NCBI GenBank assembly: GCA_003645645.1
Contig: QNBH01000005.1
Span: forward strand, 1 to 44,901
Length of the DNA stretch: 44,901 nucleotides
Reading direction: 5' to 3'
Source of the DNA: Spirochaetota bacterium
Lineage (GTDB): Bacteria; Spirochaetota; Spirochaetia; SPDA01; B32-G16
Both the position numbers and the translations under genes were made by a program. The notes below the pieces were generated by a model, which saw only the letters and a program-made list of their open reading frames with translations, made no database searches and was not told the DNA's origin. Numbering within the stretch: position 1 is the stretch's first letter; every line of letters begins with the position of its first letter. This document shows, one piece after another, positions 2,319 to 33,304 of the stretch.

Positions 2319-2777
2319 TTATAAAACTTCGGAGGGAATATTGCAAGCGCCCTGTCTTAAGATTTTATAAGGTTTGGAGGTAACATCCAGAATTGGTGAA
2401 GGTTTCCTTCCCGGGAGATCTCCCGTATCTGCAATCAGATCTACATCTTTTTCAAATTCCTTTATAATTTTCTCAATCTGCCAAAGGGGCGCTCCCCCGC
2501 TTCTGTTGACACTTGTTGATACGATGGGGCTTTCACAGAGGAAAGTACCTTTAATTTTTTTAATTCTTTCTTCCGGTTTACTACGAAAAAAGGCTACCAC
2601 CTATGTGGTGGTCTACCGGTCGAAAGCTCGGTGGAGAGACGGGCTTAAGCCCGTCTACCTTCTTTCGGAGCATACAACCAGACCGTAAATTGTATCACAG
2701 GGAATAATTGCCACTCCGCCGGATTCAAGGACATAAATCAAAATCTTTTTAGTCAGCGTGTTTTTTTTCAGTACCAA
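2319..2777 (-). pseudogene. Disrupted TsaC/YrdC/YciO-family gene
   Basis: The minus strand encodes two halves of a Sua5/YciO/YrdC protein. The N-terminal piece (from about 2777, possible TTG start) reads ESGGVAIIPCDTIYGLV, the family's threonine/ATP-binding start, then reaches a TAG codon. A roughly 80-base palindrome-rich block follows, then the frame resumes with KPEERIKKIKG and jumps directly to SPIVSTSVNRSGG, the conserved (S/T)T-S-x-N motif, and on to the end. About 70 residues expected between these motifs, including the PGPxT region, are absent. Insertion plus internal deletion make this a real pseudogene rather than a sequencing slip. A functional tsaC for tRNA t6A synthesis would have to be elsewhere. 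The 5' end overlaps the FtsB-like gene by about 29 bases. Confidence 0.8.
2583..2665. repeat. Palindromic element inserted in the tsaC-like gene
   Basis: This block interrupts the YrdC-family reading frame. It holds a perfect 20-base palindrome (AGACGGGCTTAAGCCCGTCT, 2637-2656) and a second hairpin, ACCACC-tatgt-GGTGGT (2596-2612). It carries stop codons in the disrupted frame and no ORF of its own, resembling a small non-autonomous palindromic unit. The borders are estimated from where the protein similarity stops and resumes. Confidence 0.6.
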
Positions 2778-3228
2778 TTTTTCTTCTTCCCCCTCCTGAA
2801 GTAAGAAGATAGAAGATTATACCCATACTTACCGATATCGCCCTGAAAAGGGGTCTTAAATCGATTCCCGATTTCCTGAACGTTATCATCTTTCCTATTG
2901 TATAGTAACCGGCGTCTGGTTTAAAACCCCGCAATTTAATTACCCTCTCTTCCTCCTCGAAATAACCCAACCTTCTTGCATGAAGTCGTATTAGATTAGG
3001 ATCGCTCTGCAATGCATCCAGCTCAACGGATAACTGTCTGTTTATCTTTTCCAATTCTCTATTGTTCTCATATAATTTATCTCTGTATTCCTCAAGCTCC
3101 TTCATTGCCAGAATGCCCGTATTTCCAAAAAAAAATGTAAGTACCGAATATACCGCAAAACCTGTATAAAGAGCAAGAAAAAGACGTGTTCCCTTCTTCA
3201 TACTTGTTAATACGGATAATTTACGCAA
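2749..3228 (-). CDS. FtsB/DivIC-like septum formation initiator protein
   Basis: 159 residues with a short cytoplasmic start, one membrane segment near residues 15-36 (LFLALYTGFAVYSVLTFFFG), then a coiled coil (ELEEYRDKLYENNRELEKIN) and the family-typical DPNLIRLHARRLGY motif. That layout matches FtsB/DivIC bitopic division proteins, which join FtsL and FtsQ at the septum. A second hydrophobic stretch near residues 128-143 is unusual for the family. The track start is TTG with GGGG eight bases upstream; an ATG nine codons later lacks a good ribosome site. It overlaps the start of the broken tsaC-like gene. Confidence 0.72.
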   Translation of the reverse strand: MRKLSVLTSMKKGTRLFLALYTGFAVYSVLTFFFGNTGILAMKELEEYRDKLYENNRELEKINRQLSVELDALQSDPNLIRLHARRLGYFEEEERVIKLRGFKPDAGYYTIGKMITFRKSGIDLRPLFRAISVSMGIIFYLLTSGGGRRKIGTEKKHAD

Positions 3229-3279: not shown

Positions 3280-3354
3280 ATAAAGAAGTCAATACATAAG
3301 AATATTTTGCCGATAAATAAATGATCTATACAGTATTGACTTGAGGAGCAAGTG

Positions 3355-5811
3355 ATGACCAGTGATGAATTGAAAGATTTTGGTCAGGAACAGCCGACAG
3401 AGCCTCAGGAAGGAACATTTTTCTCCTCGTCAAATGAAGATTCAGAACTTGAAAAATATGGTGTATGGGTAAAGACCAAACCGGAAGATGTAGGTGAGGA
3501 TTACGGAGAGGAAGGGGAATATCCTCTTAAAGATTTAGAAACCGAAGAAACTCCCGAAATAACTTCCCTCACAGAGGAGGAGGAGGAGCTTCTCGGTGCT
3601 CTGGAAGAAGAAATGCCGGATGAGGAGCTTTTTTTCGAGGAGGAGCAAGCAGAAACTCCGGAAACGAGTCGGAAAGAGTCACCTTCCGAAGAAAATGAGC
3701 TGGAGGAATTGGCTGAGATGGATTTTGATTTCGATGAGGGCGAAGAGCAGATTCCGGAAGAGGAACCTTTAACAGATGAAGATCTTGCATCCCTTGAAGA
3801 TGAAAAAAAGGAAGAGGAAGAGCTTATAGAGATTCCCCTGGAAGATATTGAAGAAGAAAAAGAAGAGCCTTTTTTAGAGGAAGAAGCCACAAGCATGCCT
3901 ACTGCCGAGGAAGATCTTGAAGAAATCGACCTCAAGGATCTGGAACAGTCAGACTATGGAGAAGAGCTTCCGGAACTGGAGGTCGAGGAAATTCCGGAAG
4001 CCCCTCGAGAGGAACTTGTAGCGGAAGAAGAATATGCAAAAGAAACAGAAGAAGAACCGGTAAAGACAGAAGCGGAAAAGCCTTCAACTGCAGAAGAGTC
4101 AAAAAGGGACGATACAACTACAATACTCACGAAAATCGAACATGAGCTTTCCTCGATAAAAGAGGAGCTTGCATCTCTTAAAAGAGAGCTTACCTCCCTA
4201 CATATCCCTGCAGCCGAAAGAGAGGCTTCAGAAGAAGAGAAAAAAACAGCAGGTGGTGGTTTTTTTGAAGAGGAAGAGGATGAAACCATTGCACTTACCG
4301 GAGATGAGCTGGATAACATACTTAACACTGCCGAAATAACCGAAGAGGCAGGTACGGAAACGGAAGTTCCTGAAGAAGACGAGACTCTTACTGGAGATGA
4401 GCTAGACAATATAATGAGTACTGCAGATTTTACAGAAGAGACAGGAGTGGAAACAGAACTACCAGAAGAAATTGAAGAAGAGTTAGAAAAGGAAGAAACT
4501 CCAGAAGAGGCGGAAATCCCTTCCGAACAGCTATCTGAAAGAGAAGATATTATAGAACTCGAAGAAGAAGCTCCTGCAGAAGAAGGCGAAGAGCAACCAG
4601 AAGAGCCAAGGATGAGAGAAGAAGAGATAACTCCCCTGGAAGAAAATCAACTTATCGACGAAATAGAAATCGATATTCCTCCAAAATCGTCCGAAGAAGA
4701 ATACGAAGAAGAAGCCTCTGCGGAAAGTGCAGAATCTCTTGAGGAAGAACCTTCCCTTGAAGAGGAAGGAGAGATCACCGAGCTCGAGCTTCCAGAAGAA
4801 GAGGAAACATCGACAGAGCCACCCGTTCTCGAAGCAGGTACAGAAGAAGAACTTGAGATTCCCGAGATAATAGAAGAGGATAAAGAGTTTTCACTGGAGA
4901 AACCTCATGAAGAAGCACCTGTTGGAGAAGAGGAGGAGTTCGAAGAGTTAGAGCTTCCAGAAGAAGAACCTGCTGCCCATGAAGAGGAAAGTGAAGTCCC
5001 CGAAATAATCGAAGAAGCAGAACCACCGGAAGAAGAACCTCTATCTGAAGAAGAGGAGATGGAGCTAGAAGAGGCGGAAGAAGAGCAATTTATACCGGAA
5101 GAACCCGAGCTCGAAATTGAACATGAAGAAGAAGTACAAACTCCCGAGGAGTTTGACCTCTCCGGGGAAGGAATATCCCCGCAACCAACCGTGGAGACAG
5201 AACCTGCCGAGCCGGCCGAAGAGCAGATGCCGGAAGTTGAAGGTCCCGAAGAAGGCGAAGAAGAGGCCGTTGAGTTCGAGATGGAAGTTCCCGAAGAAGC
5301 TCAGGAGGAAGAAATCGGGGAGATCGAAACCGAAGCGGAGCCTCCCGAAGAAGAAGAGTTTGAGCTTGAGCTTATCGAAGAGCCCGTAGAAGAAGAGCTC
5401 CCCGTGGAGGAACCCGACCTGATTGCAGAACACGAAGAAGGTCTCTCAGAGGAAGTCGAGCCGGCTGAAGGCGAAGTTCAACCCCAGGAACTTGAATCTG
5501 AAGAAACTGAGTCTCTAGAAACAGGGCCAGAACCGGAAAGGCTTGAACCTGAAGAAGAGCTTTCGGAAGCTCCACTTGAAGAGGCCGAAGAGATAGCAGT
5601 GGAGGAACCTGCCGAAGAGGTTCATGCTGCAAAAAAAGAGGCATCCTTTGCAGACATGCCGGAGGAGTTAAAAACAGAAATAAAATCCGTATTGGGTTAT
5701 ATGGATCAACTACTTGAATCACTACCGGAGAATAAGATTCAGGAGTTCGCCAGATCCGAACACTTTGCAGTCTATAAGAAACTCTTCGACGAACTGGGGC
5801 TTAGTCAGTAA
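3355..5811 (+). CDS. Giant Glu-rich acidic protein with a conserved C-terminal domain
   Basis: The start is set at the ATG at 3355 because GAGGAG lies six bases upstream; the track starts one codon earlier at GTG. Most of the 818 residues are a low-complexity run of Glu with Pro, Leu and Ile. Landmarks are a short coiled coil near residues 255-285 (IEHELSSIKEELASLKREL), two tandem copies of a TGDELDNI-x-x-TA unit near residues 312 and 346, and repeated PEIIEE and ELELPEEE segments. The last 60 residues (FADMPEELKTEIKSVLGY onward) are non-repetitive and helical, with the look of a conserved domain. No signal peptide or membrane segment. It heads an overlapping operon with Maf-type genes. Function unknown; perhaps a cytoplasmic scaffold or linker. 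Confidence 0.8.
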   Translation: MTSDELKDFGQEQPTEPQEGTFFSSSNEDSELEKYGVWVKTKPEDVGEDYGEEGEYPLKDLETEETPEITSLTEEEEELLGALEEEMPDEELFFEEEQAETPETSRKESPSEENELEELAEMDFDFDEGEEQIPEEEPLTDEDLASLEDEKKEEEELIEIPLEDIEEEKEEPFLEEEATSMPTAEEDLEEIDLKDLEQSDYGEELPELEVEEIPEAPREELVAEEEYAKETEEEPVKTEAEKPSTAEESKRDDTTTILTKIEHELSSIKEELASLKRELTSLHIPAAEREASEEEKKTAGGGFFEEEEDETIALTGDELDNILNTAEITEEAGTETEVPEEDETLTGDELDNIMSTADFTEETGVETELPEEIEEELEKEETPEEAEIPSEQLSEREDIIELEEEAPAEEGEEQPEEPRMREEEITPLEENQLIDEIEIDIPPKSSEEEYEEEASAESAESLEEEPSLEEEGEITELELPEEEETSTEPPVLEAGTEEELEIPEIIEEDKEFSLEKPHEEAPVGEEEEFEELELPEEEPAAHEEESEVPEIIEEAEPPEEEPLSEEEEMELEEAEEEQFIPEEPELEIEHEEEVQTPEEFDLSGEGISPQPTVETEPAEPAEEQMPEVEGPEEGEEEAVEFEMEVPEEAQEEEIGEIETEAEPPEEEEFELELIEEPVEEELPVEEPDLIAEHEEGLSEEVEPAEGEVQPQELESEETESLETGPEPERLEPEEELSEAPLEEAEEIAVEEPAEEVHAAKKEASFADMPEELKTEIKSVLGYMDQLLESLPENKIQEFARSEHFAVYKKLFDELGLSQ

Positions 5812-6916
5812 TGGGACTTCTGGAAAGAGCATTAAGAGAAAATAAAGGTAAACCATTCTCCGAAGATACAGATGGGGAGATAAAAAAAAAACTATTGAAT
5901 CCGACCTGAAAGAAGAGGACGATTGGCTCGATTACGATGATTTAAAACGGTTCGGCGAATCTGACGAAGAATCTACAGAAACTCCAAACCAAATAGATGT
6001 AGATTCTATCACAACGGAAGTGTTATCTCTTGAAAGAAGTGTCGAAACTCCTGCATTAATTTTTCCCATCTTGAAAAAGCATCTTAGCGTTAAAAAGGGG
6101 GCAATTCTCCTTCTCGATAGAAATGAAGATACCTTTTATCCGTGGGCTCATACAGGCTACGATAAAACTACCTCTCACAGACTAAGAATACCCGGAGAGA
6201 TTGTAAGGAAGTATCCTGAGTTATTGGAGGGAGACCCGGTGTTGATGGGAAAAGAAGAGCTTAATATACTTAAGCCCTTTTTTTCTATAAGGGAGTTCGA
6301 CCTTATATCTGCATCCTGGATTTGCCCGTTTGTATTTAACGGAGAGGTAATTGCACTGTTTATGATTAACGAATCTCCCCTGTGCACGGAAAAATCAAAC
6401 CTCATAGAGGTATTCAAACAAATTGCCTTTAAAGTATCACCTATTCTTCACTCCTCAAGGGAAGAAAAGTTTGATGGACTCGATCAGGAAGAACCTCTTC
6501 CCGAGAAAGAAGAGATTTATGAGGAAGTCTCAAAAATGATCGAAGCGGCATCATCTTCAAATAAAAAAATCCTGCTGATTGTTTTTTCTGTAGACAGCAT
6601 GATAGAGGAAATACTAAGAGAAGCTCCGGATGCGGATCCCTTCAGAATATGGCGGGATATAGTGCGAATTATCTCTAACATGACTCCCGATAACGGTAAG
6701 CTTTTGGTTATTGATAAGAATAATCTTCTTTTAATGATAGCGGGTAAATCGGTCCTTAACGAAAAACTTCTCCTTCATCAGATCAATACTGCGATGAAGG
6801 ACTATTTTCACCTGAAAGGAACTCTACCGGTGGTGCAACCTGCTGTTAGAATGTACCCGGATGATGGAGAGGATTCGACAGAATTACTGGAAGGAATCAT
6901 TCCAGAATCAAAATGA
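5811..6916 (+). CDS. GAF plus degenerate GGDEF-like protein, out of frame at an A10 tract
   Basis: The track lists only 6020-6916, but an ATG at 5811 overlaps the previous stop (TAATG) and opens a frame starting MGLLERALRENKGKPF. That frame ends in TGA after a run of ten A (5882-5891). One extra A would join it to the long downstream frame through TIESDLKEEDDWLDYDD and give about 368 residues. The downstream part holds a GAF-like domain (about KKGAILLLDRNEDTFYPWA to KSNLIEVF) and then a fold resembling GGDEF without the signature (KLLVIDKNNLLLMIAG ... AVRMYPDDGEDS). The stop overlaps the next start (ATGA). The break may be sequencing error, slippage-based switching or recoding. Confidence 0.7.
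5882..5891 (+). other. A10 homopolymer at the frame break
   Basis: Ten consecutive A bases at codon 24-27 of the gene starting at 5811. The zero frame reads ATA AAA AAA AAA CTA and soon stops; the -1 frame is the one that stays open. GGGGAG lies directly upstream (5874-5879) and could act as an internal Shine-Dalgarno stimulating -1 slippage. Confidence 0.75.
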
Positions 6917-8538
6917 TAAAAATTCTTACCTCTCGCTCGGGAAGAATCTACTCTGTACTCGGTAACAGACAACTTAATTCCGCCTATGACCCTGAGAAAG
7001 AGGCAATTCGATTTCTGGACAGACAGATGGGCACGAAAAACCCGTCAACGGTGATCCTTCTTGGGCCTGCTCTGGGTTATCTTAACAGGGAAATAAAAAA
7101 ACGTCTTCCGGAAGTTAAACTTATTTCTGTTTTTTACTCAAAACTGTTTTACCGGTATTCCGGTTTCTATGATGATTACTACTGGTACCCCGGAATCGGA
7201 GAAAATCTTTCTTCTTTCTTCTTTCGTACAATTGAAGAAACAGATCTTAGTGATCTTATGGTTATTGAGTGGCCTCCTTCTGCTGCAGCTTTGCCCGAAA
7301 TCTCGCATAAAGCAAATCAAACCTTGCAAGGGGTGCTTGAAGAATATAACGGTAACCTTCTCACCACCTCTGTCTTCGGTAAAAAATGGATAAAGAATAC
7401 ATTTTTTAACTTTCTTTTTACAGGCTCCTTTTTAGCCCCGGAACACGTTTCCTTCTCAAAACACAATTTCTCCGTTCCTATTCTTGTTGCTGCATCGGGG
7501 GTCAGTCTTTTAAAAACTTTAAAATTGATAGAATCATTAAAGGATAACCTTTTCCTGATTGCTCTTCCCTCATCTCTCAGGGCTCTCATTTCCGAAGGGC
7601 TTCAACCAGATCTTGTAATCACCACGGATGCCGGATATTACGCCTCTTACCACTTACAGGTTCTCAAAGGCAAGGCCAATATTCCTGTAGCAATGCCCTT
7701 TTCTGCGGCGCGGGGTATATGGCGAACGGAAAATCCAGTTTTCTTGCTGTCCCAATCCACCTTCTTCGAAGAGACCATTATTAAAACATCCGGCCTGGAA
7801 GCCTTAAGATTACCGGCTAATGGAACCGTGTCCGGCACTGCACTGGAGTTTTCCCTTGCAATATCGGAAAATCCCATTATCCTGGCAGGACTCGATCTCT
7901 GCTGGGATGACATAGTCTCGCACATAAGCCCAAACTCTTTTGAACTTCTCCTAAGGGAGCGTGAATACAAAACAGCTCCTGCTTACACCAAAATGTTCGA
8001 GAGAGCCCTATCCTTTGCGCCTTACAGAGAAAACCTCAATTCCCTGGATAGCGGTAAAATAATCAGGCTTTCCAGAACTCTGCGAACCTATGCAGAGTGG
8101 TTTTGTAGAAAATCCCTTACCCTTCCTGCGGGAAGAGTTTTCAGGCTCGAACCATCGGCGGTTCAACTGGAAGGAATAAAAAATATTACCGGAGACGAGC
8201 TTTTTTCGATGTGCAGGAGAAACGGAGGCTTTAAGAAACCAGAACTGCACAATGATATCCGGCAAAACTCACCTCCCCTGTCGGTTAGAAGAGATGTTTC
8301 CTTAAAGATTCTATCTTTCTGGCTGGATCGGTTAGAAGCTGTATCAGGGAAGATTGAAAGAGATAATAGTCTCGATACATTTACTTCAGACCCTCTTGTT
8401 ATGAGCATACTCTATTATATAGAACTTTCCATGTTTCTTAAGCTCAAAAAATCTTTTACAATTGATCTTGCCCGGAACCTCATAGAGAGAGCAAGAAGCT
8501 TTCTGGAAACACTTCTTACAAAAATAGAAACGATATGA
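6913..8538 (+). CDS. Maf/DUF115 (MptE-like) protein, divergent paralogue
   Basis: 541 residues with the layout of DUF115 (6-hydroxymethylpterin pyrophosphokinase MptE-like), called motility-associated factor glycosyltransferase when near flagellar genes. The central domain runs from about residue 185: VAASGVSLLKTLKLI, LQPDLVITTDAGYYA, then LPANGTVSGTALEFSLAISENPIILAGLDLCW. Compared with its neighbour, the glycine-rich GAGPSL motif is eroded to AASGVSL and the GGNVTHSA motif to NGTVSGTA. Starts at an ATGA overlap with the preceding gene and ends at an ATGA overlap with the next. Likely cytoplasmic; the enzymatic role is uncertain and it may be a partner subunit. Confidence 0.75.
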   Translation: MIKILTSRSGRIYSVLGNRQLNSAYDPEKEAIRFLDRQMGTKNPSTVILLGPALGYLNREIKKRLPEVKLISVFYSKLFYRYSGFYDDYYWYPGIGENLSSFFFRTIEETDLSDLMVIEWPPSAAALPEISHKANQTLQGVLEEYNGNLLTTSVFGKKWIKNTFFNFLFTGSFLAPEHVSFSKHNFSVPILVAASGVSLLKTLKLIESLKDNLFLIALPSSLRALISEGLQPDLVITTDAGYYASYHLQVLKGKANIPVAMPFSAARGIWRTENPVFLLSQSTFFEETIIKTSGLEALRLPANGTVSGTALEFSLAISENPIILAGLDLCWDDIVSHISPNSFELLLREREYKTAPAYTKMFERALSFAPYRENLNSLDSGKIIRLSRTLRTYAEWFCRKSLTLPAGRVFRLEPSAVQLEGIKNITGDELFSMCRRNGGFKKPELHNDIRQNSPPLSVRRDVSLKILSFWLDRLEAVSGKIERDNSLDTFTSDPLVMSILYYIELSMFLKLKKSFTIDLARNLIERARSFLETLLTKIETI

Positions 8539-10208
8539 GCGATAATACAATTCTCGAAAGAAATCTTCTTGCTCTCTCCTCCAGAAATGCTTCTCTCTCC
8601 AGAAAGATCGGAGAAGCACATTCCTCGGATATTCTAAAGTTTGTAAAATCACAAACCGGCTTGCCGGTTCCGATCATTTTAAAAGACGGCAAGGAGTATT
8701 TTCTCCATTCGCGATTCGATCCAGGAAAGGAAGGAGAAAGGTTTTTTCAGGTTCACTCATCGGGAGGGTATCTCGTATTTCTTGGATTTGGTGCCGGCTA
8801 TCATATCTTTCCCTTTCTTAAAAGGAAGGATGTTTCAAATATTCTTATAATAGACAGAGATGTTTCCCTTTTTAAAACCCTCTTCTCAGTAAAAGATCTT
8901 CGCGAAATCCTGCTGGATCCCAGGGTCCATCTTATGGTTGATGCAGAACCGGAGCAGATAACCGAGTATTTCCTCTCAAGTTATTTTCCGGCTATTACGG
9001 GTGATCTTAAAACCCTTCCACTACAATCCAGACTAAAAACAGAGAAACTCTATTTTACAAGGGTAATAGCTCTTATAAAGGAGCTTATAAGCACTCTGGC
9101 AGACGACTATACGGTACAGTCCCATTTTGGCAAGAAATGGTACAGAAATACCCTGTTCAATCTTAAGGCAGCAGGAAGTTCCACATCCACCCTTAAACCT
9201 GTTCGCAAAGCACTGATTGCAGGGGCCGGCCCTTCTCTGGAAGTGCAAATTGACGAGTTAAGGAACCTTCGAAAAGGGGGAACACTCATCTCAACAGATA
9301 CTGCCTTACCTGCCCTCTCCGCCTTCGGAATAATCCCGGATATGGTTATATCGATAGATTGTCAACATATTACCTACCATCATTTTATGGGAGATTATCC
9401 TCCGGATGTACCTCTGATACTCGATCTTGCTTCTCCGGCAAATCTTACCCGGATTAGCTCCAAGCTTATTTTTTTCTCAAGCGGACACCCGCTGTCACAA
9501 TATGTATCAAACAATTGGAGGAGGTTTCCCTACATAGATACCTCCGGTGGAAATGTGACACATTCGGCCGTATCCCTTGCCAATTTACTCGGAGCGGAAG
9601 AGATTTATCTTTTCGGTACGGACTTCTCCTACCCCGAAGGCAAATCCTACGCTCGTAGTACATACATATATCCTCTCTTTAGTTCCAGGGAGGTTAGAAC
9701 AACTCCTCTGGAGAGTCAATTCTTCTCCTTTCTTCTGAGGAACAACAATATCGAAAAGGAGTTTACAGAAGATTTTATAAGGTACACCACAAAACCCATG
9801 ATAAGCTACAAAAGAAGGCTGGAGAAGGCCTTTGAAAACTCTCCATGTAAAATAATATCGGTTCCCGGTAAAGGGTTACCCGTCTCTGCCATCTACAGGA
9901 AAGTTTATAATAAAAAGGAGCGGAAGATCTATACCATGATAGCGGCAGGTAAACCGCTTACAGACTGGAGAGACTTTCTTAATTCCTACGAAAAAGAGTT
10001 AACTTCTCTGCCCAAGCCTACCGAACCTTTCGTAAAGTACTTCTCTCAACTCGAGCCACACCGGAAAGATGTATGGTTGACTCTCCTGCCTGCGGCTGCA
10101 GCATTCAGAAGAGAGATCGGATCCGTCAAACCCGGAGTAGAGCTCCTTAAAATGGTACACTCCTGGAGCAGAGAAACGCTTCGCTGTTGCAGAGAAGCTT
10201 GGCTTTAA
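8535..10208 (+). CDS. Maf/DUF115 (MptE-like) motility-associated glycosyltransferase-type protein
   Basis: 557 residues. The DUF115 core starts near residue 220 with ALIAGAGPSLEVQIDEL, followed by STDTALPALSAFGIIPDMV, a conserved SIDCQH strand, and the hallmark GGNVTHSAVSLANLLGAEEIYLFGTDFSYP. All core motifs look intact. In flagellated bacteria Maf proteins transfer nonulosonic acids to flagellin; in spirochaetes the substrate is not something the sequence tells. Translationally coupled (ATGA) to the first DUF115 gene and last in the operon, ending 7 bases from the convergent DUF4914-like gene. Confidence 0.82.
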   Translation: MSDNTILERNLLALSSRNASLSRKIGEAHSSDILKFVKSQTGLPVPIILKDGKEYFLHSRFDPGKEGERFFQVHSSGGYLVFLGFGAGYHIFPFLKRKDVSNILIIDRDVSLFKTLFSVKDLREILLDPRVHLMVDAEPEQITEYFLSSYFPAITGDLKTLPLQSRLKTEKLYFTRVIALIKELISTLADDYTVQSHFGKKWYRNTLFNLKAAGSSTSTLKPVRKALIAGAGPSLEVQIDELRNLRKGGTLISTDTALPALSAFGIIPDMVISIDCQHITYHHFMGDYPPDVPLILDLASPANLTRISSKLIFFSSGHPLSQYVSNNWRRFPYIDTSGGNVTHSAVSLANLLGAEEIYLFGTDFSYPEGKSYARSTYIYPLFSSREVRTTPLESQFFSFLLRNNNIEKEFTEDFIRYTTKPMISYKRRLEKAFENSPCKIISVPGKGLPVSAIYRKVYNKKERKIYTMIAAGKPLTDWRDFLNSYEKELTSLPKPTEPFVKYFSQLEPHRKDVWLTLLPAAAAFRREIGSVKPGVELLKMVHSWSRETLRCCREAWL

Positions 10209-32180: not shown

Positions 32181-33282
32181 CTATTTATCCAGATTAAATT
32201 TATTAAGGTATTCCTGGATGAAAGAATCTATCTCTCCATCCATTACGGCCTGAATGTTTCCTGTTTCGAGTTTCGTGCGATGATCCTTAACCATGGTATA
32301 TGGATGAAAAACGTAGGAACGAATCTGATTACCCCAGGAAATATCCTTTTTCTCTTTGTTTAACTTCTCCTTTTCCCTTTCCCTCTCCTCTCTGTAGTAT
32401 TCGTACAACCTGGAGCGAAGGATTTTCATCGCAGTAGCCTTGTTCTTATGCTGACTTCTCTCGTTTTGACATTGAACCACTATTCCTGTCTCGAAGTGTG
32501 TAATCCTAACTGCAGAGTCGGTCTTATTTACATGTTGACCTCCGGCTCCCTGCGCTCTAAAAGTATCAATTCGTATATCTTCGGGTTTTATCTCCACCTC
32601 TAAGTCATCCTCAATTACAGGCGATACAAAAACAGAGGCGAAGGATGTGTGCCTTCTCCTGCTGGAATCGAAGGGTGAGATACGCACAAGGCGGTGTATT
32701 CCGCTTTCACCCTTTAAATAACCGTAAGCATAACTGCCGCTTATCTGCATGGTGACAGACTTGATACCCCCTTCGGCTTCCAGAAAATCGAGAATCTCGT
32801 AAGAATAGTCATTGTTCTCCGCCCATCTTGTATACATACGATAGAGCATGCTAACCCAGTCACAGGCTTCGGTCCCACCTGCTCCCGAATGGATTGTGAG
32901 AAAGGCATCTTTTTCATCATTTTCACCACTTAAGAGTTCCAGGTTTCGTAAACTATTGAAACGTTTATTATGCTCCCTTATGTTATGCTTTAGCTCTTCC
33001 TCAAGAGACTCATCATCTTCTTCCTGTGCAAGGTAATATAGATCCTTTAATTCTTTTAACTCTTTTTCAAGCTTTTTCCAGGGCTCGAAGCGCTTTTTCA
33101 AACGGTTTAACTCGGTCAACACGCTTGCTGCTTTCTCTCTATCGTTCCAGAAATCGGCCTGCTGAGTTTTCGCTTCCAGCTCTTTTATTTTTTTATCGGT
33201 CTTTTCGGGTTCAAAGATACCTCCAGGTTTCCTGGAATTTAGAATCCAGCTCTTCTATCTGTTGTTCAAGCTCGGTTAACAT
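32181..33282 (-). CDS. prfB: Peptide chain release factor 2, with programmed +1 frameshift
   Basis: The track shows only the second frame from an internal position (33122). The real gene starts at the ATG at 33282, preceded by GGAGGG five bases upstream. Codons 1-23 (MLTELEQQIEEL...WRYL) end in CTT TGA; a +1 shift at the UGA continues as EPEKTDKKIKELEAKTQQADFW and on through the full RF2 to give 366 residues, the normal length. RAQGAGGQHVNKTDSAVRI carries the GGQ peptidyl-release motif. RF2 ends translation at UGA and UAA and so controls its own synthesis. Followed six bases later by the CheY-like gene. Confidence 0.95.
33211..33224 (-). promoter_or_regulatory. prfB +1 recoding site
   Basis: On the minus strand GGAGG (33224-33220), TAT, then CTT TGA (33216-33211): an internal Shine-Dalgarno three bases before the slip codon and the in-frame UGA, the same geometry as the classical prfB site. 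Confidence 0.93.
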
Positions 33283-33304
33283 ATTTTCCCTCCATCTGAT
33301 TTAT

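Follow-up and report, generated by a model that had tools for sequence, protein, structure and literature searches.

A conserved A10 tract as a predicted slippage site near the start of a GAF/GGDEF-like gene in Spirochaetia

The closest described relatives of the site analyzed here are genes in which a run of A or T residues is read in more than one frame. In Thermus thermophilus dnaX, transcriptional slippage on an A9 tract generates two products in a set ratio, and an A10 form of dnaX is known in Chlorobi and others (PMC3711429). The gene described here, which encodes a GAF/GGDEF-like protein, resembles dnaX in having a conserved A9 to A10 coding run and, by prediction, two products of set ratio; the two differ in that the unslipped dnaX mRNA encodes the long form, whereas slipped mRNA would be needed for the long form of the GAF gene, in which the tract is close to the 5′ end. 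In tssM1 of Citrobacter rodentium (A11, poly-A) and in mxiE (poly-U) and spa13 of Shigella, the run places the gene out of frame and RNA polymerase slippage provides a rescue of approximately 15 to 55%, with 20 to 25% transcriptional slippage at the A11 tract of tssM1; both products of frameshifting of the tssM1/mxiE type can matter (PMC4256274). These examples were each described from a single species or a few relatives, whereas the site studied here is in a gene for a GAF regulator and extends over at least 15 families. The −1 frameshift of chlD/Mg-chelatase-type genes shares with the GAF gene a poly-A run (A7 to A11), a body in the −1 frame and the existence of fused homologs elsewhere (PMC3711429, PMC9227772), but involves a different protein and is usually described as translational with a downstream structure, which was not detected in the GAF gene. 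Cassettes of the chlD type shifted to the −1 frame in E. coli at levels of 63% for A11, 40% for A9 and 10% for A7 (PMC3711429). A literature search detected no paper describing the GAF gene as recoded, and it may be present as an unnamed cluster in the GeneTack supplement.

Structure of the locus and of the encoded protein

The window, i.e., the whole stretch of DNA that was analyzed (44.9 kb), is one contig (C5) of a draft genome that comprises 380 contigs and 3.98 Mb. Direct reading of the sequence confirmed that the TAA of the upstream ORF (5809 to 5811) shares a base with an ATG at 5811 to 5813 (TAATG), the start codon on which the original prediction was based. The zero frame from this ATG reads MGLLERALRENKGKPFSEDTDGEIKKKLLNPT* and is closed by a TGA at 5907 to 5909, soon after a run of exactly 10 A residues that is flanked by a T and a C. 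The frame encoding the body of the protein is −1 relative to the ATG and is open from 5852 to a TGA at 6914 to 6916, a distance of 354 codons from stop to stop. The later junctions of the operon also overlap, with an ATGA at 6913 and another at 8535. An early stop after the tract, a long ORF in the −1 frame and overlapping downstream junctions had all been predicted and were all found. The tract is the sole A run of 10 or more residues in the window and one of five exact A10 runs in the source genome. Coordinates of the features are listed in Table 1.

Table 1. Positions of the recoded gene, its tract and its neighbors in the window
Feature	Position	Strand	Remarks
Upstream Glu-rich protein gene	3352..5811	+	TAA overlaps ATG of recoded gene; C-terminus conserved
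Zero-frame ORF of recoded gene	5811..5909	+	MGLL start; ATG-GGN beside upstream stop conserved; 32-aa product if no slip
Frame-change interval, last body-frame stop to first zero-frame stop	5852..5909	+	Spans tract
A10 slippage tract (predicted)	5882..5891	+	Exact length; A9 to A12 in 43 out-of-frame orthologs; rare in genomes
−1 frame body: acidic linker, GAF and degenerate GGDEF-like domain	5892..6916	+	Conserved part 6029-6898
Maf-like gene 1, MptE-like domain	6913..8538	+	PF01973, E = 9.5e-19; start overlaps body stop (ATGA)
Maf-like gene 2, MptE-like and Maf N-terminal domain	8535..10208	+	PF01973, E = 3.1e-31; PF20157, E = 2.1e-5

The protein encoded upstream has a conserved C-terminus (consensus EIKSVLxYMDQLLESLPEEKIxEFAxSEHFxVYKRLFEEL) with 70 to 88% identity to 26 orthologs and 20 invariant columns out of 40, and this region was used to locate related loci. 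The presence of two Maf-type enzymes downstream was borne out by matches to PF01973 in both proteins and to PF20157 in the second, which also exhibited a match to the NF050051 domain below the cutoff for that model. The order Glu-rich protein, GAF protein and Maf-like protein is widely conserved, and a Maf homolog adjoins the gene in related loci.

The original description of the body as GAF/GGDEF-like was upheld by fold but not by Pfam, which gave no convincing match to the body; the GAF profile (PF01590) matched none of 21 members, and no GG(D/E)EF signature was detected in an alignment of the same 21 members. A Foldseek search with an AlphaFold2 model of the body (pLDDT of 86) identified the Lcd1 GAF domain, PelD and the GAF-GGDEF protein Dcsbis, with E values of 1e-6 to 3e-8. 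The modeled body has the fold of PelD and Dcsbis (a GAF domain with a degenerate or active GGDEF domain), its GGDEF-like domain coming after the GAF domain, but differs from these proteins in that neither a transmembrane part nor a GGDEF signature or Pfam match was detected, and in an identity of less than 20%. As the signature is missing, the best description of the model is a PelD-like degenerate GGDEF domain following a GAF domain. The protein is predicted to be a cytoplasmic regulator.

Tract and reading frame across the class

Of 60 relatives, none of which shared the genus or family of the source genome, 29 had an ortholog of the body. A profile search across 395 genomes of the class detected it in 139; nearly all of the genomes are draft metagenome-assembled genomes. 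A total of 110 loci were read; omission of 11 without a resolvable start left 99 resolved loci. These exhibited a recurrent layout, in which a conserved MGLL-type start adjoins the stop codon of the upstream gene described above and is followed by a segment that varies, then by the A run and the body. In 43 of the 99 loci, a tract of A9 to A12, and never of fewer than nine residues, was combined with a body in the −1 frame relative to the start; the body was in the +1 frame in none. The A count in other genomes of the class bore out the tract of the source genome, being exactly 10 in 39 of the 43 out-of-frame orthologs, while the flanking linkers varied widely in length. The interval within which the frame must change was as short as 13 to 22 nt in several species and contained the tract in all 43. 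Nearly all of these orthologs (42/43) carried the first N-terminal motif, of the MGLL type. A second motif, GLLxRA, was considered as a general feature and was dropped, as the strict pattern was present in only 17 of the 43 recoded and 4 of the 46 tract-free orthologs. In the tract-free orthologs, the body was in frame with the same start in 46 of 47 cases, the other being out of frame in an assembly with ambiguous bases near the start.

The association of tract with frame was strong (Fisher P value of approximately 6e-18) when orthologs were counted as independent of kinship. The out-of-frame tract was found in at least 15 families scattered over the gene tree, with at least 13 changes in tract presence on this tree and body proteins often more than one substitution per site apart; many families have lost the tract and carry a simple fusion. 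A tree-based independent-pairs test found two well-supported pairs, too few for significance, and hence the association rests on the counts and on the scatter over families. Within seven sets of near relatives (G199/G130, G259/G157, G271/G235, G295/G151, G292/G229, G193/G211/G278 and G029/G102/G065), both tract length and frame were unchanged.

The tract was retained with continuous frames in the remaining 9 of the 99 loci, with A10, A11, A12 and A13 states in families f8, f13 and f24. These nine tracts indicate either that the tract is kept not solely in order to join the frames or that they are background in AT-rich lineages; the tracts of the AT-rich families f13 and f24 may be such background. 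In loci of Treponema-like and other Spirochaetales (L161, L165, L167, L171, L181 and L189), an in-frame tract of A10 to A12 separates MGL from GLL close to the beginning of the gene. In the complete genome of Brucepastera parasyntrophica (L160), the ortholog has an A9 tract and a −1 body, and the frame changes a second time beyond these; this ortholog may be decaying.

The rarity of A10 was determined by a pattern search on both strands of 40 genomes. These genomes had been selected because they carry the tract, and the informative part of the count is therefore the scarcity of A10 elsewhere: there were 122 exact A10 runs in 134.7 Mb, and the tract of the recoded gene was the sole one in 13 assemblies. 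Only one other A/T run of nine or more was present in 113.6 kb of neighboring DNA. The GC content was at least 50% for 29 and at least 60% for 13 of the 43 recoded genes. Runs of this length are slippage prone and are avoided in many bacteria (PMC1088944). By sequence, the GAF gene thus has a run of at least nine residues, in the overlap of two ORFs for one conserved protein, that is conserved against an avoiding background.

Proposed slippage and alternative explanations

We consider it likely that the A10 tract is a programmed slippage site acting mainly through RNA polymerase and keeping the full-length protein substoichiometric. RNA polymerase copying the tract would add, mainly, one A in a fraction of transcripts. 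In the resulting A11 mRNA, the MGLL N-terminus would be continuous with the −1 frame, and translation would yield a GAF/degenerate-GGDEF protein of approximately 368 aa, in which zero-frame N-terminal residues are joined to TIESDLKEEDDW with a spanning peptide of ..EIKKKTIESDLK.., while the unslipped A10 mRNA would encode only the 32-aa peptide. Additional yield may come from −1 slipping by ribosomes on A_AAA_AAA in the same run. The site would fix the amount of full-length protein below stoichiometry, and coupled translation of the Maf-like genes would also fall, as the start of the first of these overlaps the stop of the body. Slippage itself, the leading part of RNA polymerase in it, the ratio of the two products and the consequence for the Maf-like genes are inferred from the sequences. 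By analogy with known sites, a yield in the tens of percent would be plausible at an A10 tract. In E. coli and Buchnera, insertions of a single base make up most of the indels that arise during transcription of A/T runs (PMC5574713), which predicts a −1 arrangement and not a +1 arrangement.

The original prediction offered slippage or recoding, phase variation and an assembly error as options, of which the first is backed by the class-wide A10/−1 pattern and by the fused tract-free relatives. Programmed −1 ribosomal frameshifting on A_AAA_AAA or A_AAA_AAG in an ordinary A10 mRNA could also produce this pattern, as the direction was −1 in all 43 orthologs and an in-phase A_AAA_AAR heptamer occurs in every phase of the tract; 26 of the 43 had the phase in which the last codon is AAN, the next base being mostly G, and chlD-type genes with A7 to A11 do shift −1 in E. 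coli (PMC3711429). Tract length, however, is held at 10 and is never less than nine, while the ribosomal heptamer requires only seven residues, and transcriptional slippage is favored for this reason. Neither a downstream structure (mean z of −0.34 versus −0.32 upstream) nor a Shine-Dalgarno signal was conserved at the 43 tracts. The GGGGAG that had been noted as a possible stimulator is present just 5′ of the tract, at 5874 to 5879, but such a role was not borne out, the Shine-Dalgarno-like motif being weakly enriched (9/43 versus 4.8 expected) and not conserved. Some known −1 ribosomal frameshift sites lack stimulators; hence, their absence only lowers the standing of ribosomal frameshifting, which we regard as an unlikely main mechanism.

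Phase variation, in which replication slippage would alter the tract length and switch the gene on and off within a population, might be expected of an A10 homopolymer, as these can be hypermutable, and the A10 to A13 states of the few in-frame lineages (f8, f13 and f24) are in keeping with changes in length. This option is strongly opposed by the fixed A10 length of the out-of-frame orthologs (39/43), by a frame that is always −1 and never +1 and by the invariance of the seven sets of near relatives; moreover, the predicted product is a cytoplasmic regulator rather than a surface structure. We therefore regard phase variation as very improbable. Also very improbable is synthesis of the body as a separate protein from an internal start, with the 32-aa ORF acting as a leader peptide. 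A GTG is present in the body frame of the source genome at 6020, and gene finders would call an ORF at 6020 to 6916. An ATG, GTG or TTG in the body frame ahead of the conserved body was, however, absent from 23 of the 43 recoded orthologs, for which internal initiation cannot account; the 46 tract-free orthologs fuse the same MGLL start in frame to the body, and an internal start would leave the invariant A10 without a reason. An error in the consensus or assembly, or a decayed pseudogene in the source genome alone, has in its favor the draft state of this 380-contig genome, the error-prone nature of homopolymers and the decay apparent in places, as in Brucepastera (L160). The body, however, has an intact, conserved ORF, and 42 further assemblies, representing at least 15 families, have the same tract and offset; with the A10/−1 state repeated in 43 assemblies, a consensus error is not tenable. 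The class-wide comparison ruled out the assembly-error option, and we give error or pseudogene decay almost no credence.

Other A10 sites and implications

Other genes of the class carry comparable tracts. In family f8, dnaX has an in-frame A10 (MRKKKLTL..; loci L146 of G007 and L279 of G067), similar to the slippage-type dnaX of Thermus. In f40 (L270 to L273) and part of f43 (L275 to L277), a chlD/cobaltochelatase-like gene has an exact A10 after approximately 390 codons and then continues in the −1 frame into the VWA part; this is an A10 form, in spirochetes, of a family already known for programmed frameshifting. The dnaX and chlD-type A10 tracts are internal controls for the tract of the GAF gene. 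An A9 or A10 tract splits a LytR-CpsA-Psr (LCP) gene in the source genome (C7:23304-23315; loci L140 and L245) and in seven others (L240, L241, L242, L255, L256, L259 and L266), and in all eight the −1 frame encodes the LCP domain. Elsewhere, this gene has an A10 with continuous frames in five genomes and is a plain fusion in the rest. A search for papers combining LytR-CpsA-Psr, frameshift and spirochete found none, and from its sequence the LCP gene looks like a second, undescribed recoded family with the same pattern as the GAF gene. Additional observations were made in the source genome. A macro-domain gene (C101:9038-9048; L141) has an A10 near the 3′ end with the expected C-terminus in the +1 frame, which could be due to slippage or to a frameshift in this single genome. 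In the window, prfB (RF2) has a classical CTT TGA +1 frameshift site preceded by an AGG-rich stretch (33122-33290, minus strand, 5′ of the listed ORF), and an A9 on the plus strand (T9 in the coding strand) is present in frame at 3127-3135 inside a small FtsB-like ORF (2749-3228).

Annotation pipelines presumably treat the GAF gene as broken or assign it a wrong start, and the gene is, hence, likely to be underannotated across the spirochetes. To our knowledge, only a handful of families of cellular bacterial genes, as opposed to IS or phage genes, are known to have conserved, programmed slippage. The site in the GAF gene extends over at least 15 families, adjoins homologs of Maf-type flagellin glycosylation proteins and comes with natural fused controls, and it opens to direct test the question of why slippage would fix an isoform ratio. 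Lineages with continuous frames have nonetheless kept the tract, and the trait under selection might hence be the ratio and perhaps also the short MGLL peptide. We tentatively suggest, as a possibility short of an even chance, that Spirochaetia keep a small set of A10 genes (GAF, LCP, chlD type and dnaX) with the same −1, one-insertion geometry as a shared system for setting isoform ratios through RNA polymerase slippage.
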